Under the pieces are notes generated by a model. It searched no databases. It was not told where the DNA came from and saw nothing but the letters and a program-made list of their open reading frames with translations. From a virus: a stretch of 22,884 bases of DNA. This document shows, one piece after another, positions 383 to 20,000 of this stretch; the stretch's first letter is position 1; the number at the start of each line of letters is the position of its first letter. Position numbers and translations under genes: made by a program. The stretch is taken from positions 1-22,884 of the IMG/VR virus record IMGVR_UViG_3300006802_000621; one strand, written 5' to 3'.

Positions 383-410
383 AGTGTACAGGATTGATCG
401 AGCAATCCAA
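383..410 (-). promoter_or_regulatory. Leftward promoter with operator palindrome in the spacer (site A)
   Basis: Read on the minus strand: a -35-like TTGGAT (410-405), a 16-nt spacer, then TACACT (388-383) as -10. The near-palindrome GGATTG-N6-CAATCC (408-391) fills the spacer. Initiation would fall about 27 nt before the ATG at 349, giving a short C/A-rich leader that ends in GAGGAGG. The same design occurs at four other unit starts. Confidence 0.65.
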
Positions 411-418
411 CATCGGCG

Positions 419-1123
419 TCACAACCCGAGCGCAGCTTCGAGTGCTGCCTCGGCGGCTTCGAGCTTCTCCTCGGCCCGGGCCAGTTCCTTGCGGCGCTTG
501 GGCAGCGTGGCCTCGGCTTTCGCTGCGTCGTTGGCCATCCACTCGGGAGCGTCGTCTCCCCACTCGGCGAACCGTGTGAGCGCCAACTCGAACCACTCGA
601 TCGAGCGGGCCTTCTTGTTGACGAGTTCCCGGGCCGACTTGACCTTCTTGCCCTCGGGCGAGCGCTCGATGGCCACGAGAGCCTTGTGCAAGTCGCGCTC
701 GGCAGCGAGCTTCTTGTTGGCACCGTTCGTCCACTCGACCGGAGCGGACGGGTAGCAGATCGAGCAGAGGATCTCGCCGTACTCGGCGACCGCCTCGGCC
801 TCGGTCAGACCCGAGAGTTCCGTGAGCCAGGCGAAGCTCGTGTCCCACCGGCAGGTCGAGCAGTTCATCGAGGAGTGGATGTGGCCATTGGTGTTGGTCA
901 CGATCCAGAAGCGGCTCCAGCCGCCATACTCGGCCTCGGCAGCTTCGAGCTTCTCGGTTGCCAGCCGGAGTGCCTCGCGGGCCTCGGCCATCTCGACCTC
1001 GCTGTAGTGGCCAGGGTTCCTCTCGCCGAAGTCGACTACCCGCTTGGCCTTGTTGGCCTCGCTGAGTGCCTCGAAGATCGCCGTGTCGACGACTACTTCG
1101 TGTCGGAGTTCGGTGTTGGTCAT
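419..1123 (-). CDS. Actinophage-type protein with Cys/His putative zinc-binding core and coiled coils
   Basis: 234-aa protein starting MTNTELRHEVV with GGAGGA upstream. The middle (about residues 69-130) reads WSRFWIVTNTNGHIHSS, MNCSTCRWDT, then CSICYPSAPVEW. This gives the His and four Cys expected of a structural zinc site, two CxxC pairs about 30 residues apart. I know this arrangement (a W.R..LV.N.NGH.H.S..CSTC block followed by C..CYPSAPV) from uncharacterised proteins common in actinobacteriophages. Both flanks are Ala/Glu/Lys-rich and look helical or coiled-coil: residues 42-65, and the last 35 residues with EEKLEAAEAALEAAL. The gene has its own operator-promoter (1154-1181). Function is unknown; a nucleic-acid or protein-binding adaptor is possible. 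Confidence 0.85.
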   Translation of the reverse strand: MTNTELRHEVVVDTAIFEALSEANKAKRVVDFGERNPGHYSEVEMAEAREALRLATEKLEAAEAEYGGWSRFWIVTNTNGHIHSSMNCSTCRWDTSFAWLTELSGLTEAEAVAEYGEILCSICYPSAPVEWTNGANKKLAAERDLHKALVAIERSPEGKKVKSARELVNKKARSIEWFELALTRFAEWGDDAPEWMANDAAKAEATLPKRRKELARAEEKLEAAEAALEAALGL

Positions 1124-1153
1124 CTTGTTCCTCCTTCTCTTCCTGTCAAGGCC

Positions 1154-1181
1154 AGTGTATCAGATTGATCCATCAATCCAT
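1154..1181 (-). promoter_or_regulatory. Leftward promoter with operator palindrome (site B)
   Basis: On the minus strand ATGGAT (1181-1176), a 16-nt spacer and TACACT (1159-1154). The spacer holds the perfect inverted repeat GATTGAT-GG-ATCAATC (1178-1163). It drives the 234-aa leftward gene through a short leader ending AGAAGGAGGAACAAG. The palindrome also contains the stop codon (1175-1173) of the upstream leftward 51-aa gene. Confidence 0.65.
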
Positions 1182-1328
1182 GTCATCGGACCAATCCCAC
1201 TCGTCCTCGCCCGGTCCCTCGAACCGTCGGCCAGGGATGGACGAGGCTCGAAGTCGAGCCGTCGAAAACTCGAATCGATCGCGCTCGTTCCACTTGACCT
1301 TGGTAGTCTTCCTGCCTTCGCTCCTCAT
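1173..1328 (-). CDS. Small 51-aa basic-to-acidic protein, unknown
   Basis: Short leftward gene that fills the gap between the 234-aa gene and the divergent helicase unit. The product begins MRSEGRKTTKVKWNERDR, continues with the basic stretch RLRASSIPGRRFEG, and ends in a highly acidic, Trp-rich tail GEDEWDWSDDMD. No Shine-Dalgarno sequence precedes the ATG. Instead an extended -10 (TGC TACAAT) ends 8 nt before it, which suggests a leaderless mRNA, a mode common in actinobacteria. The stop codon lies inside operator B. The basic-then-acidic layout and the lack of any other occupant support a real gene, but I recognise no family. Confidence 0.55.
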   Translation of the reverse strand: MRSEGRKTTKVKWNERDRFEFSTARLRASSIPGRRFEGPGEDEWDWSDDMD

Positions 1329-1336
1329 GAGATGCC

Positions 1337-1347
1337 ATTGTAGCATC
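1337..1347 (-). promoter_or_regulatory. Extended -10 promoter, probably giving a leaderless transcript
   Basis: Minus strand TGC-TACAAT, the extended -10 consensus, placed 8 nt before the ATG of the 51-aa gene, so transcription should start at or next to the A of ATG. The -10 is flanked by a 5-bp inverted repeat, GATGC/GCATC (1347-1343 and 1335-1331), which may be a separate control site. A TTGATG at 1367-1362 could be a -35, but its 19-nt spacing is long. Confidence 0.45.
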
Positions 1348-1449
1348 AATCATGGACCAGTCATCAACTCCAAGAGTTCGTCAAGATGACAGGACAAGGT
1401 TGTTCCAAGGGTAGCTTCGGAAGAGGGTCGTTGTTGGTAGCAGTTACTA

Positions 1450-1465
1450 CGGCCGCTTGCGGCCG
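1450..1465 (+). other. GC-rich hairpin just upstream of the helicase ribosome site
   Basis: CGGCCG-CTTG-CGGCCG forms a 6-bp all-GC stem closed on a CTTG tetraloop, a known stable loop class. It ends about 8 nt before the AAGGAGG of the helicase gene. No T-run follows, so it is not a typical terminator; it may stabilise or modulate the 5' end of the helicase-primase mRNA. I saw no convincing rightward promoter in 1348-1449. Confidence 0.5.
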
Positions 1466-1486
1466 GACGGAAGAAGGAGGATGGAC

Positions 1487-2764
1487 ATGAGTCTCAAAAC
1501 CGAAACTCTTCTCATCTCAGCAATCCTGAGACAAGAAGATTCGATCTCTCCGGTGCTTGCAGGAGTTGAGAAGAAGTGGTTCGCCGCTTGCGGCGATCAG
1601 TGGGAGTGGATAGAGAGATACATCTCAAGACACCGCAAGACTCCCTCGAAAACTCTCTTCCGGTCGAAGTTCCCCGACTTCCAGTTGGTGCAATCTGATG
1701 ACGTTGAGTACTGCATCAACGAGTTGAGAGACGAGTACCTCGTCCGCTCCTTCGTCGCGATGGTTGACGATTCACTCGATGCCATCAAAGACGGTCGAGA
1801 CATCGAGTCGATCATCAACAGTTGCCAAAGCAACATCGTGAAGCTCCAAGGAGATGCTCTCGGTAACTCGAACGAGTCGAGCATCATCGATGACTGGGAG
1901 CCGATCTACAACGAAGTGTCGAGGCGGTACGAGCGTGCCAACGAAAGAGGCATCTCTGGTATCCCGACTGGGTTCTCGACTTTGGACAAGGTCACGTCTG
2001 GTCCACAACCCGGGGACTACTGGATCGTCGCTGCTCGACTTGGCCAGGGTAAGACCTGGGCACTGATCCGCATGGCAACGATGGCGGTCTATCAAGGACA
2101 CACTGTGCAGTACGACGCACTCGAACAGTCGAGAGCACAGATCGCCATGAGAGCGCACTCCTTCCTGTCGGCGTCGTCGACCAAAGAGGGCATTCGGTCA
2201 TCGGCACTCATCAGTGGCAAGGGGTTCGATCTTGCCGCCTACAAAAGATTCTTGTCCGGCTTGCGTAATGGCGAGCTAGGCAACTTCATCGTCAACGACA
2301 CGAGTCGAGGTCGAGTGTCGCCAGGGTCGATCGCTGCACAGATCGAGCGCAACCGGCCGGACGTTGTGTTCATCGACTACCTCACCCTGATGAATTCGCA
2401 AGCAGGCGACTGGCAAGCCATTGCTGCACTGTCATCGGAGTTGAAAGGCATCGCGATGCGCTATGAGGTTCCGATCGTTGCGGCTGCACAGATCAACCGC
2501 ATGGCGATCGGCAGTGACGTACCCGGTGCCGAACACTTGGCCGGAGCAGATGCGATCGGGCAAGATGCCGACTGTGTTGTCACGATGCGCCAGGTCAGTC
2601 GGCGAGTCACGAAGATGAAGCTCGCGAAGTACCGGCATGGTCAAGATGGCATGGAGTGGTTCAACGAGTTCCGGCCAGGTGTCGGAGTCTTCCGCGAGAT
2701 CAGTGGCGACATCGCTTCCGACCTCATCTCCGAGGACAAGCTCGAAGACATGCAGAAGCCGTGA
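1487..2764 (+). CDS. DnaB-like replicative DNA helicase
   Basis: 425-aa RecA-fold hexameric helicase that unwinds the phage replication fork in the cytoplasm. The N-terminal ~150 residues are the helical partner-binding region. The motor begins at GIPTGFSTLDKVTSG (about residue 158), the usual DnaB entry. Walker A is AARLGQGKTW (182-191), with the Ala-Ala-Arg start normal for DnaB. Walker B is PDVVFIDYL (Asp297), the motif-3 glutamine is in VPIVAAAQINR (Gln335), and the C-terminal KYRHGQDG (381-388) carries the arginine-finger region. I chose the ATG at 1487 because AAGGAGG ends 6 nt before it; the ATG at 1481 abuts that site and the TTG at 1457 lies in the hairpin. The stop overlaps the primase start (TGATG), so the two are translationally coupled. 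Confidence 0.95.
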   Translation: MSLKTETLLISAILRQEDSISPVLAGVEKKWFAACGDQWEWIERYISRHRKTPSKTLFRSKFPDFQLVQSDDVEYCINELRDEYLVRSFVAMVDDSLDAIKDGRDIESIINSCQSNIVKLQGDALGNSNESSIIDDWEPIYNEVSRRYERANERGISGIPTGFSTLDKVTSGPQPGDYWIVAARLGQGKTWALIRMATMAVYQGHTVQYDALEQSRAQIAMRAHSFLSASSTKEGIRSSALISGKGFDLAAYKRFLSGLRNGELGNFIVNDTSRGRVSPGSIAAQIERNRPDVVFIDYLTLMNSQAGDWQAIAALSSELKGIAMRYEVPIVAAAQINRMAIGSDVPGAEHLAGADAIGQDADCVVTMRQVSRRVTKMKLAKYRHGQDGMEWFNEFRPGVGVFREISGDIASDLISEDKLEDMQKP

Positions 2765-3654
2765 TGAAGTACGCGCAGTTCATCGAGCGGCACATGCAAG
2801 TCGTCACTCGATCGGGAGACGAGTGGTCGTGCATCTGCCCATTCCACCGGGACACTGCGCCGTCTCTCAGTGTCAACGTCCGCAGTGGCCTGTGGGTCTG
2901 CTATGCCTGCGGAGCGAAGGGTTCGGCCAACACGCTTGCCACTCGATTCGACGCAGAGGTCGACTCCCTTGGCACGAGATCCATTGACGATGTCAAAGCG
3001 AAAGTGGCGGCCGTCGGCAAGCCAGTTGCAAATGCAACGATCTCGCTCGATGTTGTCGAGCACTGGAAGTCGTCGTTGCAAAAGGAGGGCGGGTGGTCGG
3101 CGAGAGGAATCTCGGCCGATGTCATCGAAGAGTTCGACCTCGGCTTCGACGATCTCGAAGACGCCTTGGCCATTCCCATCCACCACCCGATGTCAGGTCG
3201 TCCGGTCAGTGTGATCAAGAGGTTGTTGCAACCGGAACCAGGCTCTCCGAAGTATCGATATGCGCGAGGCTTCCGTGTCAGTGACCATCTGTACGGCGCT
3301 TGGCACGTCCAGCGCCAAGCTCCGCTAGCGGTTGCAGTGACAGAGGGTTCGATCGATGCCCTGAGCATGTGGTCGGTTGGCATCCCTGCCGTCGCTTTGC
3401 TCGGGGCGAGAGTGTCGCGGGCACAAGGCTCTCTTCTTCGATCGCTCGACGTACGGACGCTTGTTGTCATGACGGACAACGACGAAGCAGGTCGTCGTGC
3501 GGCCGAAGCGCTCGAATCGATCCAGGGGTCAGGGGTCAGGTGCCACAGGCCGTCGTGGTGGCCCTCGAAAGTGAAAGATCCTGGCGAGATGTCAGATGCC
3601 GACAAGGTTGGAGTTTTTGACTCAGCACTGTCGCGACGACGTAGCGCGGTGTAG
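2764..3654 (+). CDS. DnaG-like primase (CHC2 zinc finger plus TOPRIM)
   Basis: 296-aa primase that makes RNA primers for the phage fork. The N-terminal zinc-binding domain shows CPFH (Cys25, His28) and CYAC (Cys46, Cys49), the CHC2 pattern. The TOPRIM catalytic core follows: AVTEGSIDAL supplies the conserved glutamate, VVMTDNDEAGRRAAE the DxD metal site, and KDPGEM the trailing conserved loop. It lacks a long C-terminal helicase-binding domain, as is usual for phage primases of about 300 residues. The ATG overlaps the helicase stop by one base, so the pair is made together. An inverted repeat matching the phage operator half-sites lies inside the gene (3025-3038). Confidence 0.93.
   Translation: MKYAQFIERHMQVVTRSGDEWSCICPFHRDTAPSLSVNVRSGLWVCYACGAKGSANTLATRFDAEVDSLGTRSIDDVKAKVAAVGKPVANATISLDVVEHWKSSLQKEGGWSARGISADVIEEFDLGFDDLEDALAIPIHHPMSGRPVSVIKRLLQPEPGSPKYRYARGFRVSDHLYGAWHVQRQAPLAVAVTEGSIDALSMWSVGIPAVALLGARVSRAQGSLLRSLDVRTLVVMTDNDEAGRRAAEALESIQGSGVRCHRPSWWPSKVKDPGEMSDADKVGVFDSALSRRRSAV
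3025..3038. promoter_or_regulatory. Intragenic operator-like inverted repeat GTTGCA-AA-TGCAAC
   Basis: Perfect 6-2-6 inverted repeat inside the primase gene. It matches the repeat at 3769-3782 (GTTGCA-AG-TGCAAC) and the outer arms of the operator at 7577-7595. No -10 box adjoins it, so if bound it would be a roadblock or accessory site. It could be a chance codon coincidence (Val-Ala-Asn-Ala). Confidence 0.35.
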
Positions 3655-3663
3655 CCTTTCGAG

Positions 3664-3688
3664 AGTTGCTTGTGTCCGTCAGGCAACT
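3664..3688. repeat. Inverted repeat AGTTGC/GCAACT in the helicase-primase 3' region
   Basis: Six-base arms AGTTGC (3664-3669) and GCAACT (3683-3688) separated by 13 nt, just after the primase stop. The arms contain the same GTTGC/GCAAC half-sites as the operator-like repeats at 3769 and 7577, but at wider spacing. It could be a weak RNA hairpin or an accessory binding site. Confidence 0.35.
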
Positions 3689-3697
3689 GCTATCCCC

Positions 3698-3752
3698 TAG
3701 CGAACGGCCCGGCTCAGGTCCACCTCCTTCCTTAGAGCCGGGCCGTTTGCTA
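3698..3752 (+). terminator. Long stem-loop closing the helicase-primase unit
   Basis: Arms 3698-3715 and 3735-3752 form an 18-bp stem with one G-U pair (core AACGGCCCGGCTC / GAGCCGGGCCGTT) and a 19-nt loop. It lies between the primase stop and the promoter of the next unit, as expected for a terminator. No long T-tract follows (only TTT inside the stem end), so it would be an actinobacterial-style hairpin terminator, and it could act in both directions. The loop contains CACCTCCTT, identical to the anti-Shine-Dalgarno end of 16S rRNA (see findings). Confidence 0.6.
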
Positions 3753-3768
3753 TGTAAGCGAAGAAGTA

Positions 3769-3782
3769 GTTGCAAGTGCAAC
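3769..3782. promoter_or_regulatory. Operator-like inverted repeat GTTGCA-AG-TGCAAC (site F)
   Basis: Perfect 6-2-6 inverted repeat ending 11 nt before the -35 region of promoter C. It shares the GTTGCA/TGCAAC arms with the operator at 7577-7595 and the repeat at 3025-3038. Its position suggests a second regulator-binding site upstream of promoter C. Confidence 0.5.
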
Positions 3783-3793
3783 GACCCTTCGAG

Positions 3794-3821
3794 TGGTTGA
3801 TTGAACAATCTTGTGTATACT
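3794..3821 (+). promoter_or_regulatory. Rightward promoter with operator palindrome (site C)
   Basis: TGGTTG (3794-3799), 16-nt spacer, then TATACT (3816-3821), the best -10 of the family. The spacer contains the inverted repeat GATTG-AA-CAATC (3799-3810). The leader to the ATG at 3852 is about 24 nt, C/A-rich and ends in AAGGAGGAG. It drives the ArdA-like gene and the two small genes after it. Confidence 0.65.
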
Positions 3822-3851
3822 GGCGTTCCACCCACTACCAAGGAGGAGCAC

Positions 3852-4169
3852 ATGACCGACGAGTTCTTTGCGGAGATGGAGGAGACGCTCGGTATCCCGG
3901 CTCGGGCGATCGAGTTGTACTGCGACAACCATCACATCGATTCCGAGGACGGCCTTCTGGAGTTCGCCAAGCACCTGACCGAGTCCTACCTCGGCTGGTA
4001 CGAGTCGGGTGTCTGGGAGTTCGCCTCGATGTTGATCGAGGACATGCTCTTCGAGGGCGGCTTCAACGAGCACCCGTTGTCGAAGTACGTCGACGTGGAT
4101 GCCTACACCAACGACTTGGAGCACGAGGGCTACCACGCCATCGAGGGCTACGTCTTCGGCCCGGCTTGA
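3852..4169 (+). CDS. ArdA-like antirestriction protein
   Basis: 105-aa very acidic protein. The segment ESYLGWYESGVWEFASMLI (residues about 42-60) followed by LSKYVDVDAYTNDLEHEG and ending EGYVF matches the C-terminal ArdA signature: a Y.G.Y.S...FA block, L..Y.DY.AY..DL, and a terminal GYVF. ArdA proteins mimic the shape and charge of bent B-DNA and block type I restriction enzymes. At 105 residues it is shorter than the usual ~165, lacking most of the first ArdA lobe. Being first behind a strong operator-promoter fits early expression against host restriction. The ATG at 3852 has AAGGAGGAG 3-4 nt upstream. Family assignment is by motif recognition, without a search. Confidence 0.7.
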   Translation: MTDEFFAEMEETLGIPARAIELYCDNHHIDSEDGLLEFAKHLTESYLGWYESGVWEFASMLIEDMLFEGGFNEHPLSKYVDVDAYTNDLEHEGYHAIEGYVFGPA

Positions 4170-4179
4170 GGAGGAGTTC

Positions 4180-4422
4180 ATGCTCAAACTGCCCAACAAC
4201 CGCACCCTCGAAGAGGGCGATGAGTTCACGGTCGTTCGGTCAGCCCGCTATGCCCACCACGACACCGGCCGCTACCGCTTCATTCGAGTGCGCGACAACG
4301 GCGTCGAGGTGGACGCATGGGGTCCGATCGACAAAGGTGGCAATGCCCCGTATGGCCGGACCCGGTCGTTCAAGATCGAGGACATCGATCGAGTTCACAA
4401 CAAGAAGAAGGAGCGCCCGTGA
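4180..4422 (+). CDS. Small basic protein of unknown function
   Basis: 80-aa protein following the ArdA-like gene by 10 nt, with GAGGAG before its ATG. It has a strand-rich pattern (GDEFTVVRSARYA, GRYRFIRVRDNGVEVDAWG, then RSFKIEDIDRV) that suggests a small beta-barrel, with a lysine-rich C-terminal tail (HNKKKERP). The repeated charged strands could suit nucleic-acid or protein binding, but I recognise no family. Its last codons overlap the GTG of the next gene by 4 nt, so the three genes 3852-4673 form one operon. Confidence 0.75.
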   Translation: MLKLPNNRTLEEGDEFTVVRSARYAHHDTGRYRFIRVRDNGVEVDAWGPIDKGGNAPYGRTRSFKIEDIDRVHNKKKERP

Positions 4423-4673
4423 TCGACATCACGATCTACCATCCTGTGCCAGAGTTGAACACTCGCAAGTTCGAGCTTGAGATCGACACAGGCGAGGGGC
4501 TTCGGTGCAGCGCCCACGTCTCGTGGCAGGCAGCGGTCAAGGCCGCCAAGAGGTGGTGCTCTGACCGAGGAGTCGCCAAGGCCACCATCTTCGACATGCG
4601 CCCTGCCCGCATGGGCGGCGCTCGCCATGTCGACTTGTCAGGAGAAGAAATCTGCACCGCAGTGTTGGATTGA
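4419..4673 (+). CDS. Small protein of unknown function ending inside the next promoter
   Basis: 84-aa product starting at GTG in a GTGA overlap with the preceding stop, with AAGAAGGAG upstream. It begins MIDITIYHPVPELNTRK and has a strand-helix-strand outline: strand FELEID, helix SWQAAVKAAKRWCSDRG, strand KATIFDMRP. I see no catalytic motif and recognise no family. The stop (4671-4673) lies inside operator palindrome D, so this coding end and the next promoter evolved together in the same bases. Confidence 0.7.
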   Translation: MIDITIYHPVPELNTRKFELEIDTGEGLRCSAHVSWQAAVKAAKRWCSDRGVAKATIFDMRPARMGGARHVDLSGEEICTAVLD

Positions 4674-4692
4674 TCAATCAACCTGCTATCGT
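4665..4692 (+). promoter_or_regulatory. Rightward promoter with operator palindrome (site D)
   Basis: TTGGAT (4665-4670), 16-nt spacer, then TATCGT (4687-4692) preceded by TGC, giving an extended -10. The perfect palindrome GATTGATCAATC (4668-4679) overlaps the -35 and fills the spacer. The C/A-rich leader (CACAACCACAAGGAGG) leads to the GTG at 4723. It drives the MoxR ATPase and VWA pair. Confidence 0.65.
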
Positions 4693-4722
4693 CACCCACT
4701 GTCACAACCACAAGGAGGAAGC

Positions 4723-5616
4723 GTGACCACCACACAGACCCACCCACTTGAGTCGTTCACTCCCGATCGGTCGTTCGCGATCGAGTACGTCTCTCGCGAT
4801 GTCAACGGCGTTCGCGATCTCGACGTGCTGGCCGAGGCCCACCGGCTCCGCCGCAACGTCATTCTCGAAGGCCCGACCGGCTCCTCGAAGACGAGCTTCG
4901 TTTACGCTTATGCGGCCGCCCACAACCTCCCGCTCGTCAACGTCCCCTGCAACGGCGGGGTCGACATCAAGCAGTTGATCGGCGGGTGGCACCCCGCTCG
5001 AAACGGCGGCTACGACTTCACGCCGGGCGACCTAGTGCTCGGCGCCTATCACGGTGCCGTGATCCTGTTCAACGAGATCAACTTCTTGCCGCAAAAGATC
5101 GCGAGCTTTGTGTACGGCTTGCTCGACAAGCGCCGCACGGTTTACATCCCCGACGCGTCCGGCTCCGATTTCCCTACGCAGTTTGTCGCACATCCGACGA
5201 CATTCATCGTCGCCGACTACAACCCGGGGTACATCGGCACTCGTCCTCTCAACGAGGCTCTGCGTAATCGTTTCTCGATCCCGCTGGTCTGGGACTACGA
5301 TCGCAAGGTCGAGGAGCAGTTGGTCGTGAGCAAGTCGTTGCTCGACATGGCAGACAAGCTCCGTGCTCGTGCGGCCGTGGGCGACATCCACACTCCGGTG
5401 GCTACCAACGCCTTGATGGAGTTCGAGGAGTTCGCCTGGTCGAAGCTGGGTCTTCGGTTCGCTGCCGACAACTTCGTCCGTCGGTTTGCCGCTGATGAGC
5501 GCAAGATCGTGTCCGAGGTCGTGGGGCTGCACATGGAGAAGATCGAGGAAGAGTTGGCAGGCAGTAAGGTCGACGGCGAGACCCAGGACCATCCTGAGTT
5601 TGCGGGGGCTTTCTGA
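4723..5616 (+). CDS. MoxR/CobS-type AAA+ ATPase
   Basis: 297-aa AAA+ ATPase of the MoxR branch (MoxR, CbbQ, GvpN, CobS), proteins that work as ATP-driven remodelling rings with a VWA partner. Walker A is EGPTGSSKTS (49-58), in which the Gly before Lys56 is replaced by Ser. Walker B is AVILFNEIN (112-120), with Asn in place of the first Asp but the catalytic Glu118 kept. Sensor 1 is VADYNPGY and the arginine finger is in LRNRFSIPLVWDY. The GTG start has AAGGAGG 6 nt upstream; longer starts would run back through the promoter and the preceding gene. The stop overlaps the next ATG (TGATG), coupling it to the VWA protein. Its phage target is unknown. Confidence 0.9.
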   Translation: MTTTQTHPLESFTPDRSFAIEYVSRDVNGVRDLDVLAEAHRLRRNVILEGPTGSSKTSFVYAYAAAHNLPLVNVPCNGGVDIKQLIGGWHPARNGGYDFTPGDLVLGAYHGAVILFNEINFLPQKIASFVYGLLDKRRTVYIPDASGSDFPTQFVAHPTTFIVADYNPGYIGTRPLNEALRNRFSIPLVWDYDRKVEEQLVVSKSLLDMADKLRARAAVGDIHTPVATNALMEFEEFAWSKLGLRFAADNFVRRFAADERKIVSEVVGLHMEKIEEELAGSKVDGETQDHPEFAGAF

Positions 5617-7574
5617 TGACTGCGATGACAAAAGACGCCAAGGTCGAGAGTGCCTCGCGCACCGAGATCATCGACGCTGTCGAGAAGTGGTGCAGGGCCA
5701 ACGGAAAAGTCGGCGATATGGAGAGCGAGTTGCGTCGGGTCGAGCAGTGGCGTGACGCTTCGGCGTCCGTCGTTGCCAAAGTCGCCTCGGTGTTGGCCGG
5801 TCGCTCGATTGACACGCGCTGGACGATGTCGGTGCCGATCGCTGCAACTGACGGCGAAGACATCCTTGTGTCGCCCAGTTGGTTTGCCAACAACATCGTC
5901 CCAAGCCTGTTGCAGCGCGACGCATCGGCATCGGTCTTGCACTGGGCTGACCTCAAGGCTGTGGCCTACCACGAGCTTTCGCACATCATGTGGACGCCGC
6001 GATCGACACACCTGCCGCTCAAGACGATCGCTGCGCTCGACGACACAGACGAGCGCGACAGCCTCTTCCGGTGGTGGAATCTGCTGGAAGACCAGAGGAT
6101 CGAGAGCCTGTTCGTGGCGAGGTATCGCCCAGCAGGAACCTTGTTTACCGGCATGGTGCTCCGGCATGTTGTGTCTTCCCGAGGTGCGGAAGACCTGACT
6201 CACTTGTGGGTGCATGGACGGAAGTATCTGCCGTCCAACATCCGCAGTGCATACCGTCAAGCGTTTGCCTCCGAGTGGGGCGAGGCATTGACGGTGCAGT
6301 TCGACAGCTTGATCGATCGATACCGGAAGTTCGTCTTCCCGACCGATTCTGAAGAATCGATCGAGTTGATTCGTGAGTTTGCTCGACTTGTCGAGTTGAT
6401 TGAGGGCCGTCAGATTTCGCTGCGAGCTAAGGCAGACCAGTGGGAGAACTCTCACGGCCTTCACAAGACGGGCCGACCAGTCCCAGTTGCAGATTCCCGC
6501 GAGGCTCGCGACCAAATGGTCGAGGAGGACAAGCTGGACGAATCCGGTGGCGACACCAAAGTTAGCGCCGGAACCTCGGGTTCGAGCGACGACTCTGTCG
6601 AGGAGTCGAGCGCAGGTTCGGGTTCGACTCCTGGCACGAGCGATTCCGATTCCGAGTCCCAGCCCCAGTTCGAGGACATTCGCGACATGGTCGAAGAAGC
6701 GTTGGAGGAAGTCGAGAGCGTCGAGGCTCACGAGGGAGCAGAGATACTCAAGGCTGTTGCAGCGTCGGCGGCTGAGTCTCAAGCTGCTTCGATCCCTCGC
6801 GTCCCCAACACCTGGGGTCGATTGACAAGGCCGATTCGGCCTTGGATGACGGTGGCGGCAAACTCGCTTCGGAACGAGTTGATGCAGTTGACGACTGACC
6901 AATCGGAGAACTGGGATCGAGGCCACACGAGCGGGCGATTGAATGTCCGAGATGCGATGGACGCTCGTGGTATGCACTGCAACATCTTCGATGCGTGGAG
7001 CGACATCGACGAGGACGAGATGTCGTTCGAGGTTTCGGTTCTGATCGACAGGTCAGGATCGATGGAAGGCTCGCGACAGCACGTTGCTTCGCAAGCCCTT
7101 TGGGTTGTGCGTCGTGCGCTCGACCAACTCGACATTCCTGTGACGGTCTACGGCTACGATCACGAGTCCAGGCTGGAGGCCAGCCCTGCACTTCTGGCGT
7201 CTGCCACCGAATACGACTTCTACAAGTCTGGCGGTAACACCAATCCCTACCAGGCTCTCTTGTGGACCAGAGAGTTGATGAAGAGCACGAGGGCGGCCAA
7301 CAAGCTGCTCGTGTCGATCACTGATGGCCAGTGGTATTGCCGGAGAGGCAGTTACAACTGGCACGCGATGAACGGAATCCGTGCGGCCGGAGTAGACACA
7401 CTGCTCGTCCTGATTGACATGGACACGAGGGATGTCGACCGTAACGGCGGACGCTGGAACGGCCACGATTCTGTCGTGTCACTCACAACGAATTCGTTGG
7501 CTAGGCTGCCTGTCGAAATTGGTGGCCAGGTCGCCAGGATGATCAACGACCGCCTATCTCAAATGACGGTCTGA
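5616..7574 (+). CDS. HExxH metallopeptidase-like and VWA domain protein, MoxR partner (CobT/DUF2201-like)
   Basis: 652-aa two-domain protein. The N-terminal half has HELSH (119-123) and, about 35 residues later, NLLEDQRIE. This HExxH...EDxRIE pair is typical of the metallopeptidase-like domain of CobT/DUF2201-type VWA proteins and predicts zinc binding. A Ser/Gly/Asp/Glu linker (about 309-348) follows, then helices and a VWA domain with a full MIDAS: DRSGS (Asp478, Ser480, Ser482), the Thr in SGGNTNPYQ and the Asp in SITDGQW. MIDAS proteins bind Mg2+ and a client; here the AAA+ partner is encoded just upstream with a TGATG overlap. In chelatases such a pair inserts metal; with no tetrapyrrole gene nearby I infer protein remodelling or processing instead. 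An alternative is CobT-like support of host cobalamin synthesis. Confidence 0.85.
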   Translation: MTAMTKDAKVESASRTEIIDAVEKWCRANGKVGDMESELRRVEQWRDASASVVAKVASVLAGRSIDTRWTMSVPIAATDGEDILVSPSWFANNIVPSLLQRDASASVLHWADLKAVAYHELSHIMWTPRSTHLPLKTIAALDDTDERDSLFRWWNLLEDQRIESLFVARYRPAGTLFTGMVLRHVVSSRGAEDLTHLWVHGRKYLPSNIRSAYRQAFASEWGEALTVQFDSLIDRYRKFVFPTDSEESIELIREFARLVELIEGRQISLRAKADQWENSHGLHKTGRPVPVADSREARDQMVEEDKLDESGGDTKVSAGTSGSSDDSVEESSAGSGSTPGTSDSDSESQPQFEDIRDMVEEALEEVESVEAHEGAEILKAVAASAAESQAASIPRVPNTWGRLTRPIRPWMTVAANSLRNELMQLTTDQSENWDRGHTSGRLNVRDAMDARGMHCNIFDAWSDIDEDEMSFEVSVLIDRSGSMEGSRQHVASQALWVVRRALDQLDIPVTVYGYDHESRLEASPALLASATEYDFYKSGGNTNPYQALLWTRELMKSTRAANKLLVSITDGQWYCRRGSYNWHAMNGIRAAGVDTLLVLIDMDTRDVDRNGGRWNGHDSVVSLTTNSLARLPVEIGGQVARMINDRLSQMTV

Positions 7575-7576
7575 CA

Positions 7577-7604
7577 GTTGCATTGCCAATGCAACCTGTA
7601 CACT
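7577..7604 (+). promoter_or_regulatory. Rightward promoter with 9-1-9 operator palindrome (site E)
   Basis: The perfect inverted repeat GTTGCATTG-C-CAATGCAAC (7577-7595) ends 3 nt before TACACT (7599-7604). GTTGCA at 7577 lies 16 nt before the -10, and TTGCAT 15 nt before it. The C/A-rich leader (ACAACCAACAAGCCACAAGG) reaches the ATG at 7637. It lies 3 nt after the VWA stop and drives the ssDNA-binding and replication genes. Confidence 0.7.
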
Positions 7605-7636: not shown

Positions 7637-8374
7637 ATGAAATTGGCAGCACGCGAGATGGGGAGCATCCAAGCTCTCAAAGCGTCGCTCAAGCGGGGCG
7701 GTAGCAACGGCGAGACGTGGATCAAGGGAATCCCGTCCGACGGCATCACGGTCCGGTTCCTCACCGAGCCGGAGATGTGGTTCGGCTTTTACGAGTACTT
7801 CGACCGTGACAACAAGCAGTTCATTCCGATGGTCGAGGGCGAGATCCTGCCCGACGGAGTCAAGCCGAGCTTCCGCTATTTGACCGTTGCGGTTGACATG
7901 GAGTCGGACCGAGTCATCCCGCTCAAACTGCCGAAGACGGCAGCCAACAGCCTGATCCTCAAGTACGACAAGTACGGCACCCTGGGCGATCGGTGCTACG
8001 AGCTTGAGAAGTTCGGCGAGGGACTCGATACGACCTACGATGTCTCCCCGCAGGCGCCGACCGAGTTCGCTGCCGAAAAGTACGAACTCCTCGACTTGGA
8101 GGCCATCCTCGTTGCCGCTCGAAGCAAGGCATTGGGTGAGGCAGTCGAAGACGAGCCGTTCCCCGAGTCTGACATCGACGACGATGTCACGACGGCCGCT
8201 GCTCCGGCGGATGACTCCGACATCGACGATGAAGAGTCTGAGGCAGGCGAGGTCGACTTGTTCGAGATGACCATCCGAGAGTTGCGGGTGGCTGCGATCA
8301 CGCACAACATCGATCCTCGTGGCAAGACTCGGGCGCAGTTGATCGACGAGTTGGTCGATGCCCTCGAAGACTGA
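7637..8374 (+). CDS. gp32-like single-stranded DNA-binding protein with C-terminal SAP/Rho-N-like motif
   Basis: 245-aa protein opening the replication block behind operator-promoter E; the ATG at 7637 has AAGGAGG upstream. The core (residues 20-160) contains GETWIKGIP, GITVRFLTEPEMWFGFYEY, KPSFRYLTVAVD, LKLPKTAANSLILKYDKYGT and GEGLDTTYDVSP. I recognise this order from T4 gp32-like phage ssDNA-binding proteins, including the KYDKYGT and LDTTYDV blocks. The zinc-binding Cys/His cluster found in many relatives is absent here. A very acidic linker (about 170-205), typical of SSB tails that recruit partners, leads to an unusual end, FEMTIRELRVAA...IDPRGKTRAQLIDELV, a SAP/Rho-N-like helix-extended-helix. 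It should coat unwound DNA for the polymerase and RecA encoded downstream. Confidence 0.65.
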   Translation: MKLAAREMGSIQALKASLKRGGSNGETWIKGIPSDGITVRFLTEPEMWFGFYEYFDRDNKQFIPMVEGEILPDGVKPSFRYLTVAVDMESDRVIPLKLPKTAANSLILKYDKYGTLGDRCYELEKFGEGLDTTYDVSPQAPTEFAAEKYELLDLEAILVAARSKALGEAVEDEPFPESDIDDDVTTAAAPADDSDIDDEESEAGEVDLFEMTIRELRVAAITHNIDPRGKTRAQLIDELVDALED

Positions 8375-8777: not shown

Positions 8778-8930
8778 GTGAGTCGCTCCTACTGCGCCTG
8801 GTGCCGAGAACCTGACGACACTGGAATTGGCATCTGCAAAGATTGCCTGATCGAAGAAGGAAGTCTTTTTGATGACTCACACAAACCCATTCAACGCAAT
8901 GACCGACGAGAAGAAGCATCAAGTGGCTAG
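8778..8930 (+). CDS. 50-aa CxxC...CxxC zinc-ribbon microprotein
   Basis: Short gene starting at GTG; the product begins MSRSYCAWCREPDDTG and continues GICKDCLIEEGSLFDD. The two CxxC pairs (Cys6, Cys9 and Cys20, Cys23) are 11 residues apart and form a minimal treble-clef or zinc-ribbon site. The acidic middle is followed by a polar tail. The ribosome site is weak and the end overlaps the next gene by 59 nt in another frame, so the tail may be shorter in function than in sequence. The four correctly spaced cysteines in an otherwise empty gap are the main support for a real gene. Confidence 0.55.
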   Translation: MSRSYCAWCREPDDTGIGICKDCLIEEGSLFDDSHKPIQRNDRREEASSG

Positions 8931-9195
8931 TCTGCTGCTGTCCGGCGACACGGTGTCGTGGACCGATCTGAGTGAGCGCGTCGGCGCCCTGAGTCCCAGA
9001 ACAATGGGCGCCGTGTTGCGTGCCCTCGAAGGTGGCGGTGCAACGATCTTGCGCCTGCGCCATCCCGAGCACGGGACGTTGTACCGCTACGATCCTCACT
9101 GCGAGTTCGACCCGCGCTACCGAGTCTCTCGGCCAGACGGGCCTGACGCATTGCGGGAACAGCGTGGCTCTCAACCGCACTCAGAAACGGCGTGA
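8872..9195 (+). CDS. Winged helix-turn-helix-like small protein
   Basis: 107-aa protein starting MTHTNPFNAMTDEKKHQ; AGAAGGAAG lies about 9 nt before this ATG. Residues 15-75 fit a winged helix: a first helix EKKHQVASLLLSG, then VSWTDLSERVG, a recognition-type helix SPRTMGAVLRALEGGG, and a wing ILRLRHPEHGTLYRY. That pattern is common in DNA-binding regulators and also in replication adaptors. It sits inside the replication operon and has no promoter of its own. It may be a transcription regulator of the early genes, but I cannot tell from sequence whether it recognises the palindromes seen here. Confidence 0.7.
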   Translation: MTHTNPFNAMTDEKKHQVASLLLSGDTVSWTDLSERVGALSPRTMGAVLRALEGGGATILRLRHPEHGTLYRYDPHCEFDPRYRVSRPDGPDALREQRGSQPHSETA

Positions 9196-14840: not shown

Positions 14841-15348
14841 GCCAGTGGTAATAGGAGTCGACCCAGCTTCTACTAAGCTGGCGTTCGTCGCCCTGTTTCA
14901 TGGGCAGCACCGAGTTGCTTTTTACAACCGAATCGGCAGTTCAGGTGCGGGAGCTAGTGCCGCTGGTTGGGGTCACGCTCAATACTTCGTCGAGACAATC
15001 AAGTCAGTCTGGCCAAACTCAGACATTGTTTGCTTTGTCGAGCAGCCTGTCCTGGGGCGTGGGGGAGTACGAGCTACAATGGTTCAGGCATTCACTTCAG
15101 GAGCAGTTCAAGGCGCTCTTTACGATGCTGGTTGCGATGTGCATTTAGCTAACCCTTCCACATGGAAGAAGCGCGTTGTTGGAAAAGGGAACGCCACGAA
15201 AGATGATGTATCCAAGTGGTTACGATCCAGATGGCCTTCTCTCCACACCCAAGCAGGAGGAAATCAGGACATCGTTGACGCTTCCTGCATTGCCATCTAC
15301 GGCCAACAGATTTGCCGAGAAAGAATGGGCGAATCTAGCGGCATGTAA
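14818..15348 (+). CDS. RuvC-like Holliday junction resolvase
   Basis: 176-aa RNase H-fold endonuclease that resolves four-way junctions, useful for debranching phage DNA before packaging. The acidic metal sites are visible: GVDPASTKLAF (Asp15), CFVEQPV (Glu75), and QDIVDASCIAIYG (Asp151, Asp154). A basic loop, WKKRVVGKGNATKDDVSKW, matches the usual RuvC K-x-x-V-x-G-x-G-x-A-x-K block. Length is normal for RuvC. It overlaps the previous gene by 23 nt and has no clear ribosome site. From here to about 15600 the sequence is more A/T-rich than the replication genes, hinting at a different origin for this gene and the WhiB gene. Confidence 0.88.
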   Translation: MIKRVEHEPVVIGVDPASTKLAFVALFHGQHRVAFYNRIGSSGAGASAAGWGHAQYFVETIKSVWPNSDIVCFVEQPVLGRGGVRATMVQAFTSGAVQGALYDAGCDVHLANPSTWKKRVVGKGNATKDDVSKWLRSRWPSLHTQAGGNQDIVDASCIAIYGQQICRERMGESSGM

Positions 15349-15598
15349 AGGGCAGACCGTCGTCTTCTTCAGGCATTCCTGCAATTCGCAGTGCAAGACA
15401 CACGCGGCGGGGTGCGACAGAATCAAGACTGTCAGGAAGTGCAGGGCTGTCTGCGCCTCTTGCCCAGTGTTAGTTCACTGCCGGATATGGGCAGTCAACA
15501 ACGCCGGAGACGTTCCATTCGGCATGTTTGGCGGGATGACAGAACGAGAGCGGCTTATTCTGGCTCAAGTCCTGGAGGTTGATTGCAGCGTCAACTAA
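15275..15598 (+). CDS. WhiB-family Fe-S transcriptional regulator
   Basis: 107-aa protein (TTG start proposed, GGAGG 14 nt upstream; other starts lie inside the RuvC-like gene). WhiB features: WANLAACKG with Cys24, then CASCPVLVHC giving Cys60, Cys63 and Cys69, the C..C.....C ligands of a redox-sensitive [4Fe-4S] cluster. Next comes WAVNNAG and the beta-turn FGMFGGMTERER, the WhiB G-[VI]-W-G-G turn with Phe for Trp. WhiB proteins bind the primary sigma factor region 4 and steer promoter choice; a mycobacteriophage WhiB (TM4) is known to block the host WhiB2. Odd here is an insertion with four extra cysteines (Cys36, 40, 47, 56) between the first and second ligands. Sitting just before the head genes, it could switch on late transcription. 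Confidence 0.85.
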   Translation: MTLPALPSTANRFAEKEWANLAACKGQTVVFFRHSCNSQCKTHAAGCDRIKTVRKCRAVCASCPVLVHCRIWAVNNAGDVPFGMFGGMTERERLILAQVLEVDCSVN

Positions 15599-17076: not shown

Positions 17077-20000
17077 GTGCCTACATTCGAAGACTTCTCA
17101 TCTGAGCAGTTGCTAGAGGATGTCATTACGGCCGCCCTGGAATACGAGGGAGACTTCAAGAGCAAGTTCTTGGAATTGCTGGAAGAGGCAGCCGAGAACC
17201 CCGTCATGCTTGACCTTTTGCGCGACATCGCCGACGGCGTGTACATCGAATACACGCCGGGCATCGAGGAAGAGCTAGCCAAGATCGACATCACGATCGA
17301 CCAGCTTGGAGAAATCCTCAATGAGGCTATGACATCGGTCGGGCAGAAGACGATTGACTCGATCGGATTCGACATCCAGTTCGACATGACTAGCCCCGAG
17401 GCGATTGATTACGCCGGTCGTATGAGCGCCAGGCTTGTAACGAATGTCGGGCAGGCGATCAAAGACTCGATCCGTGACGTGGTGCAGGAAGTCCTCAGAA
17501 ACGACATGACGCTCTCGCAGATGCGCCGGTTCGTGAAGCAGCGTGTCGGGCTATTGCCTTCTCACTCAAGGGCCGTCACGAACCTCTACAACAACCTGAT
17601 CTCGACATCGGGGCCGCAGACCGCCGCCAAGAGGGCAAACGAGTACGCCAATCGACTCCGCAATTACCGAGCCGACATGATCACTCGGACGGAGATCGCT
17701 ACCGCCCAGAGCTACGGCCAGTTGGCAACGTGGCAGCAGTTCCTCCGCGATCGTGTCATCCCACCGGACAGTGTCCGAATCTGGATGACCGCGCAGGACG
17801 AGCGGGTGTGCGAATTCTGCGGGCCGATGCACCTGGCCACCGCCCCAGTCGACGGGGAGTGGGTTGTGCCGCTCCAGAGTGGCGGCATGGGGTCAGTCAG
17901 TGTGCCGACTGACATCCACCCGAATTGCCGATGCGCCTCGGGCCTGACCTTCCCGGTCGGTCGGATGAACGAGTTCTTGTCCAAGCACGGTGTGTCCGGC
18001 TTCGAGATTTGGAACCTCAAGAAGCACTACAAGGGCACCAAGTTCGACCACGACCAAGGGTCGCACGCAGGCACACGCCGCAAGGAACGCAACGTGGCGA
18101 ACGCTACCGCCACAGGTTTCGCCCCTGTCTGGAAGGCTTTCTTGGAGCACGCCGACGCTGTCAAGTTCATCAACGAGAAGTACGGCGGCAAGTTCGACAT
18201 CCCCGACATGGATGATGTCTATTCAGTAAAATTTAGAGGCGACCCGTCGGCCGGAGAACTTGCCAAGGAAGCGCTGGCAGAAGAAATCGGCAAAGCCATT
18301 CTCGAACAAATGACACCAGAAGAGCTTCAAGAAGCGTACCAACAGTTTGCTCTGCTTACGAAAGACATTGGGGCTTTCGGCACCGTGCAACTAGACGAAA
18401 TCGTTAGCCCTCATTACACGAGCCATCTCGACATTCTTGAGTTCTTGGGGCCGGACAAAACTTGGTCTTTAGGAAGATACGGTGTTGAAAGCTTAGGGCC
18501 AGATCAAACTGCTGCACTAATCAATCTAATGGAAGAGGCTGGAATAAAGCCAGGAGGTCTTACCTCTAACCCAGGGGCACATCAAAACAGTGTTGTTGTA
18601 GTGTGGCCAGAAGACTTGAGCGGCAATATTCAGTTGTTAGACCCAATTACTATGGACGAGTTAGCAAACGTCCCAGCATTGCCTAGATCCAGCGATTCTT
18701 TTATAGACGAATCCTATAGGGTGGTTGCTTACTTTGGGTTATTGAGCCAAGCCAATAGATTGACAGTCAAGCAGACTGTTGACGCGTTCAGGTCTAACCC
18801 AGAGCTTCTACAGGCGTTCAATGACGCTGGGTTCCGCATCGGACGAACAATGCACGAAACTAACACGGTGACTGTAGACATCAACAGATCCAGGCCCGCT
18901 CACACGCTGGAGCCAGGCATACACAAGGCCATCGGGTCAGGCATTGTCAACGCATGGGCTATCTCGTCGCAGTCGATTGGCAGCCGCTTGTTGGGTCGAG
19001 CAGTAATAAGCGAGTTTGGCGCATCTAACAAGCTTGACCCTGACGACACAACAGAGCGTGCAATCAACAATCGCCAAGCTAGTGGCGAAACAGATTCGCT
19101 TGAGAAGCTCTTCCGAATTGCTGCCGTGCGACAGTACGAGATGACTCAAAGAGCACTCAAAGCCGCTGGAATCACACACGTCGATCTTGTTCGGGGTATG
19201 TCAATCAGTCAACCCGTGAAGGGTGTGCGGGAGTCGGAAATGCGCGCTCTCTCTTCGTGGTCGACTGAAATGAAAACTACTAGGTCGTTTGCCGGTTGGC
19301 TCGGCGATGGTCAACCAACCTATGTCAGTGCTCGATTCCCAATTGAACGAATTTTCGCAACCCCGTTGACGGGCATTGGCTGTTTCCATGAAGCCGAGTT
19401 TGTGGTGCTAGGGGTGCCTGGAACTGACAATGTGTTCTTCATACCTGAACGTGAAATCGAAGAACTCAAGTACTATGGGTCAATGGACGGGAGAGAGAAA
19501 GTCATCTTCAAGGAAATGGAGTTCCCTGAAGCGACCGTACTCGGCACAGTGACCAAGGCCATCGTGAAGCCGATCTGGATCGACGAAGACATCATCAACG
19601 CTGACTGGATCAAGGTTGCGGGAGTTGATCTGCCCGGGGTCGAGACGGCCGAGGACTACATCGAATACTACGGCCTCGATACCGACGAGGCGCTTGCCGC
19701 CCATATCAACGAGGTCAAGTCGCTCCCGTACTGGGTGGGTGTCCCGTCCGAGATCAAGGATGGCCTTGCTAGCGTCCGCCTCTCCAAGCACTTAGACGGT
19801 CAGCACGACCAAAAGAAGCACGGCAAATGGGCGAAGAGCTACACGGGTCATCCGGCGCTAGACGATGTGATCGCCAGTTTCCTTGACTCCTCTTTGTCTT
19901 GGGATGAGCAGTGCAAGATTGGGAACACCTCTGCTGCGGATATAGCAGGGTATTGCGCCGTAATAGCAGACGAGTTTACGGCTTACGCCAAAGAGCGACT

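Follow-up and report, generated by a model that had tools for sequence, protein, structure and literature searches.

Five early promoters in the viral DNA analysed here, which comes from an uncultured actinobacterial phage and is the whole of IMG/VR record IMGVR_UViG_3300006802_000621 (22,884 bp, 57.5% G+C; hereafter the window), carry a single fixed-spacing 14-bp palindrome, RTTG-N6-CAAY, which ends 3-6 nt before the -10 box. Seven related IMG/VR contigs (G005, L061, L064, L066, L067, L068 and L070) have the same palindrome at the same spot in another 21 promoters, bringing the number of operator-promoters to 26 in eight contigs. Because five window promoters share it and seven related contigs have it at the same position, a phage regulator, judged from sequence, very likely binds the palindrome. 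The reading that we favour, with a probability of roughly 0.6, is a dimeric helix-turn-helix protein that is encoded by the phage, binds RTTG-N6-CAAY in the spacer of extended -10 promoters and thereby sets the timing of early genes; most likely it is a repressor.

A preliminary description of the window had proposed a phage regulon whose shared operator lies inside the -35/-10 spacer, a proposal borne out by the 21 promoters in the related contigs. All five palindromes and -10 boxes that it listed were found again at the same coordinates and on the same strands. It had, however, distinguished two palindrome types, which become the one motif RTTG-N6-CAAY when the sites are aligned on the -10 box, and the -35-like hexamers that it placed 16 nt from each -10 box match TTGACA at only 2-3 of 6 positions in the window. 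A standard -35/-10 scan found none of the five window promoters. The sites are:

Operator A, 393-406, minus strand: ATTGCTCGATCAAT, 4 nt before the -10 box TACACT (388-383); drives gene 95-349; out-of-sample matrix score 23.7.
Operator B, 1164-1177, minus strand: ATTGATGGATCAAT, 4 nt before the extended -10 TGA-TACACT (1159-1154); drives gene 419-1123 (phrog_2433).
Degenerate operator region, 1337-1361, minus strand: ACTGGTCCATGATT at 1361-1348, before a leaderless gene.
Auxiliary site, 3769-3782, plus strand: GTTGCAAGTGCAAC, 27 bp upstream of operator C.
Operator C, 3796-3809, plus strand: GTTGATTGAACAAT, 6 nt before the -10 box TATACT (3816-3821); drives ardA and the small genes 4180-4422 and 4419-4673.
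Operator D, 4669-4682, plus strand: ATTGATCAATCAAC, 4 nt before the extended -10 TGC-TATCGT (4687-4692); drives moxR (4723-5616) and the VWA gene (5616-7574).
Site E, 7577-7595, plus strand: the 19-bp palindrome GTTGCATTGCCAATGCAAC, which contains ATTGCCAATGCAAC (7582-7595), 3 nt before the -10 box TACACT (7599-7604); drives ssb (7637-8374).

Within the window, ATTG-N1-6-CAAT occurs at six places, namely the five sites and 1337-1350, which overlaps the -10 of another promoter-like region. In that degenerate region ATTG-N6-CAAT (1350-1337, minus strand) overlies the -10 box TACAAT (1342-1337), and relatives carry a perfect ATTGGAGCACCAAT where the window has the degenerate operator. RTTG-N6-CAAY has 14 copies, against 1.2 expected from dinucleotide shuffles and a mean of 2.85 across other spacings. 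It ranks first among about 32,000 degenerate half-site and spacing combinations, with an uncorrected p of 1.9e-6 that becomes borderline once corrected for the number tested. When TANNNT is required 3-6 nt downstream, exactly the five sites match, with 0.03 expected in shuffles. A matrix built from the seven other contigs only and run on the window placed B, A, C and D in its top five matches, with B first (score 29.1) and B read on the opposite strand as the remaining one of the five; the promoter region of the leaderless gene and, in ninth place, site E make up the rest of the top nine. In the reverse direction, a matrix from the five window sites recovered the operator promoters of all seven contigs, and in six of these they were the top matches once opposite-strand echoes were set aside. 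The exception is G005, where a single other location, matched on both strands, ranks among them.

Among the contigs, the window has five operator-promoters, and G005, L061 and L068 have four each. In G005, which is the full L011 contig, three promoters carry ATTGGNGCNCCAAT, with 4-5 nt between it and the -10 boxes TACGCT, TACAGT and TACAAT, and a fourth, slightly degenerate copy lies at 185. Partial loci and the moxR and ssb promoters had led to the reading that relatives lack the palindrome, which the full L011 contig rules out. L061, found by a DNA-pattern scan, is about 94% identical to G005 and has four such promoters, and L064, L066, L067, L068 and L070 were added through a terminase-based scan. 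No operator promoter was found in L089 or L090, relatives with a DnaB of 70% identity.

The position of the operator is nearly fixed, the gap to the -10 box being 4 nt at 17 promoters, 5 nt at seven, and 3 nt and 6 nt at one each. With the first -10 base taken as -12, the operator spans about -30 to -17. The promoters themselves largely belong to the sigma-A extended -10 class, with TGN directly before TANNNT in 20 of 26 (the exceptions being A, C and E of the window, the promoter p4 of G005 and of L061, and p2 of L070). Their best -35 match at 16-18 bp reaches 2-4 of 6 positions in 24 of 26; p1 of L061 and p1 of L064 differ, with TTGACA 17 bp from TACAAT. Upstream, an auxiliary palindrome, GTTGC-N4-GCAAC, lies exactly 30 bp from the operator at eight promoters in seven contigs, p2 of each of the seven relatives among them, and the window site at 3769-3782 is of the same class.

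The symmetry of the operator is maintained as its sequence changes. The arms are nearly invariant and 91% of arm cells pair, while pair 5/10 switches in compensation, being G.C in 8, A.T in 5 and C.G in 1 of 20 distinct operators. The covariation score of this pair is 0.145 against 0.079 in shuffles, only 1 of 500 of which scored as high, although the matrix-based choice of sites may add a small bias. At promoter p2, G005, L061 and L064 have G.C at this pair, and L066 and L067 have A.T. Of the six substitutions that separate the operators of G005 and L061, five fall in the centre, and at the leaderless gene the operator and -10 are identical at 30 of 30 positions within a gapped region. A 4-6-4 palindrome whose half-sites lie one turn apart and covary symmetrically points, from established operator geometry, to a dimeric DNA-binding protein.

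Such a dimer would recognise the two 4-bp half-sites, 10 bp centre to centre and thus one helical turn apart, and would occupy the spacer of promoters with an extended -10 but no good -35. Most likely it would then repress by competing with sigma and RNA polymerase, and the repression would set the timing, or the shut-off, of several separately transcribed early units together. At one promoter type the auxiliary site, about 53 bp upstream of the start, would probably aid this through cooperative binding. The gene for the regulator would lie outside the contigs at hand or be unrecognised within them. We favour repression because an activator is needed neither by an extended -10, which most of the promoters have, nor by the full TTGACA present at two of them.

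Several points weigh against this account. The near-fixed position of the operator is not required for simple repression and would also fit an activator that works together with polymerase. Site E is the weakest of the five, and its out-of-sample score of 12.2 is reached about once per shuffled window; support for this site alone is uncertain. Neither an HTH_3 domain nor a tyrosine integrase (PF00589) was found in the window or in the G005- and G003-type contigs, all of them incomplete; these searches did not extend to L061 and L064-L070, and serine integrases, parABS and the cluster A repressor were not looked for. In L061, L066, L068, L069 and L070 the open reading frames were read. GMA6, the nearest cultured relative with a published assessment, is reported to be without an integrase, parABS or a repressor (PMC5559632). 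Since no HTH_3 protein or integrase was found and GMA6 lacks lysogeny genes, an immunity repressor is no more likely than a regulator of lytic timing.

The genes behind the operators, and those next to them, are as follows:

Leaderless 51-aa gene, 1173-1328, minus strand: start ATG (1328) 8 nt after the -10 box.
DnaB helicase, 1487-2764.
DnaG primase, 2764-3654.
ArdA-like protein, 3852-4169: 26.2 bits, slightly below the Pfam cut-off.
Small gene phrog_1338, DUF7246-like, 4180-4422, plus strand: in the unit behind operator C.
MoxR-type AAA ATPase (moxR), 4723-5616, plus strand.
VWA/CobT-like protein, 5616-7574, plus strand.
SSB (ssb), 7637-8374, plus strand.

The operator usually stands 40-60 nt before the start codon. 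A homologue of window gene 4180-4422 immediately follows the first operator promoter (p1) in each of the seven related contigs, and the operator there resembles operator C, reading ATTGATTGACCAAT in L061. The homologue of the leaderless gene in G005 and L061 follows a further operator, and its start codon is 6 nt downstream of the -10 box. Leaderless starts at 6-8 nt past the -10 are independent support for where the -10 boxes were placed. The preliminary description took absence of the palindrome upstream of the same genes in relatives as grounds for refutation, and on this point the evidence is divided. Some shared units keep the palindrome. The moxR promoters of L008 and L011 and the ssb promoters in a number of relatives have no operator and show TTGACA or a one-mismatch version of it, and the relatives carry the operator at other early units. 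Regulon membership therefore changes between these phages. The ssb promoters have spacer palindromes of other kinds: TGCC-GATA-GGCA in L007, L008, L010 and L011 (in L007 and L011 in the form TGCCGATAGGCA) and AGGGG-N8-CCCCT in L013 (about 795-822). The L007/L011 and L013 forms were not seen at other promoters there, and their meaning is unproven.

The strongest rival to repression is an activator at this site that works from within the spacer, with a MerR-like geometry or by replacing the -35 as T4 MotA does, and thereby switches on early or middle promoters that have no -35 themselves. We regard this as unlikely. It would account for the poor -35 matches of 24 of the 26 operator-promoters, in a phage family in which most non-operator promoters have TTGACA, for the nearly fixed distance of 4-5 nt from the -10, and for the auxiliary site near -53. 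As at MerR-family operators, the palindrome lies between -35 and -10. However, MerR promoters have spacers of 19-20 bp and a recognisable -35, whereas the promoters described here mostly lack a -35 and place its expected position 16-18 bp from the -10 (two have TTGACA at 17 bp). Moreover, the extended -10 found in most of them can dispense with a -35, and p1 of L061 and of L064, which combine an operator with a perfect TTGACA-17-TACAAT, would need no activator. A more specific form, in which a dimeric regulator of these uncultured, apparently non-temperate actinophages fills the spacer at a fixed register, co-occupies it with polymerase, replaces the -35 and activates early promoters, seems to us more doubtful still; to our knowledge no promoter class of this kind, filled in the spacer and activated by replacement of the -35, has been described for phages.

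A stoperator-like role, in which the regulator would also bind copies of RTTG-N6-CAAY inside genes and block elongation, is improbable. Six such copies lie inside window genes (at 1821, 3025, 5878, 9715, 15582 and 21356), five of them GTTG-N6-CAAC, against 1.0-2.5 in synonymous-codon shuffles (p about 0.005-0.0075). However, G005 and L061 have one or two coding copies each, near expectation, and the window copies were not found at matching places there. A role for the dispersed copies is not established, since these two contigs show no excess. The stoperators of mycobacteriophage L5 are 13-bp, asymmetric, orientation-dependent sites bound by a monomer (PMC9283540), and L5-type stoperators are intergenic (PMC9283540, PMC5559632). 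Like the operators and stoperators of L5 and cluster A, the operator described here is a short site present many times in a genome, at promoters and perhaps in other places, but it is a symmetric 14-bp palindrome anchored to promoters. No repressor related to the L5 type was found in the window or the G005-type contigs, where the cluster A repressor itself was not searched for.

Still less probable is a host regulator exploited by the phages. No cognate phage gene was found in the contigs examined, as this would predict, but the inner operator bases and regulon membership differ between closely related phages. A search of 84,980 bacterial and archaeal genomes for the G005-type operator with its -10 gave one match, in a metagenome-assembled genome of Chitinophagaceae, which is below chance; the narrowness of the pattern makes this a weak test. 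Finally, it is very improbable that the inverted repeats are terminator hairpins of the upstream genes that stand before promoters by chance: several sites do lie directly after a stop codon, and E folds at -10 kcal/mol (z -2.7), but A-D fold weakly (z -1.6 to +0.3), there is no U-tract, and a fixed -10 distance and conserved 4-bp arms with variable centres would not be expected.

Compared with known systems, a dimeric repressor at RTTG-N6-CAAY would be of a familiar kind, one phage regulator acting at many early operators: the same short site stands at several separate early promoters and is conserved in related phages. The kind is known from phage phiC31 and from the stoperators of L5 (PMC9283540), and the present operators differ in sequence, symmetry, near-fixed register to the -10 and phage group. 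The temperate Streptomyces phage phiC31 has a known repressor that binds conserved inverted repeats (CIRs). Like the CIRs, the operators here are palindromes at many early promoters across the genome of a phage of an actinobacterial host, with one regulator proposed for many early units; they differ in sequence and length, and they fill the spacer, nearly always ending 4-5 nt before the -10 box. The operators of Cro and CI of the 434/lambda type, ACAA-N6-TTGT, share the 4-6-4 geometry, the length of 14 bp, the half-sites one helical turn apart and the overlap with early promoters, but their half-site is another one, and no HTH_3 protein was found in the window or G005. Cluster K mycobacteriophages carry extended start-associated sequences (ESAS), in which two imperfect 17-bp inverted repeats separated by a variable spacer lie beside the start codon (PMC3203893, PMC12699233), and for which the regulator is unproven (PMC3203893). 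Both kinds of element recur as inverted repeats before some of the non-structural genes, and related phages keep them; unlike the ESAS, the element here is a single 14-bp palindrome at a fixed -10 distance, farther from the start codon, and direct reading of the sequence before these starts found no start-associated 13-mer GGGATAGGAGCCC.

The preliminary description had placed the regulator outside the window or unrecognised within it, which fits our finding that none was recognised there. Three window proteins were considered. The product of 8869-9195 (plus strand) is strongly conserved in IMG/VR relatives and has no Pfam or PHROG match; it is predicted with good confidence to be a winged helix (AlphaFold mean predicted local distance difference test, pLDDT, 83), with ArsR-, MarR- and TFE-like PDB matches at E 0.03 or worse. 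The stretch around residues 42-55, its putative recognition segment, changes little in relatives in which no operator was found, and by sequence and model it is unlikely to be the cognate regulator. A WhiB-family protein (15176-15598, plus strand; PF02467, E 1e-11) is encoded between ruvC and the portal gene in most relatives, several of which have a second WhiB-like gene. Both proteins are poor candidates because essentially all relatives have them, including those in which no operator was found. The protein of gene 4180-4422 was rejected as well; it is predicted, in a modest model, to be all-beta, and has no helix-turn-helix.

The window record is probably a fragment. Its further products include a DnaE-type polymerase, UvsX, an exonuclease, RuvC and a portal protein. 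The nearest cultured phages, the Gordonia phages Chidieberevirus and GMA6 and the Brevibacterium phage Cantare, have a polymerase identity of about 40%, and the nearer relatives, at 58-72%, are IMG/VR contigs only. A search of IMG/VR with the MoxR, VWA and gene-419 proteins gave no closer relatives of the window. Compared with G005 (2398-5535), the window block 1173-3654, which holds the divergent leaderless gene and the helicase and primase genes, has the opposite orientation with respect to moxR and the genes after it, and operators are located around the junctions. In L089 (659-4223) the helicase-primase genes are partly duplicated in tandem, which may be real or an assembly artefact. A 47-nt segment occurs three times, spaced about 445 bp, at window 19792-20729, within the gene of a 1565-aa MuF-like protein (17077-21774).

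A scan with the window-type pattern GATTGNTNNANCAATCNNNTANACT matched 14 contigs of unrelated phages, for the most part through homologous copies of a small number of promoters; beyond a distant DnaB resemblance, none is related to the window. In the unrelated phages L031-L044, GATTG-N6-CAATC-type palindromes stand directly before the -10 either of a primase- or helicase-type gene, with a DnaB-like match nearby, or of a leaderless gene whose product resembles a small Cro/YdaS-type protein. In the relative L017 (G011), four copies of CCTTAT-N3-ATAAGG lie within 130 bp at 17478-17605; this element was rejected as a promoter motif and is a local repeat cluster.

The phage group to which the window belongs is known from metagenomes only, and its distant cultured cousins GMA6, Chidiebere and Cantare share its replication genes. 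The analysis gives this group a cross-validated operator motif and a promoter map, and the operator matrix can help to locate the regulator gene once a complete genome is at hand. It makes testable the standing question of how phages without recognised lysogeny genes coordinate many separate early transcription units.

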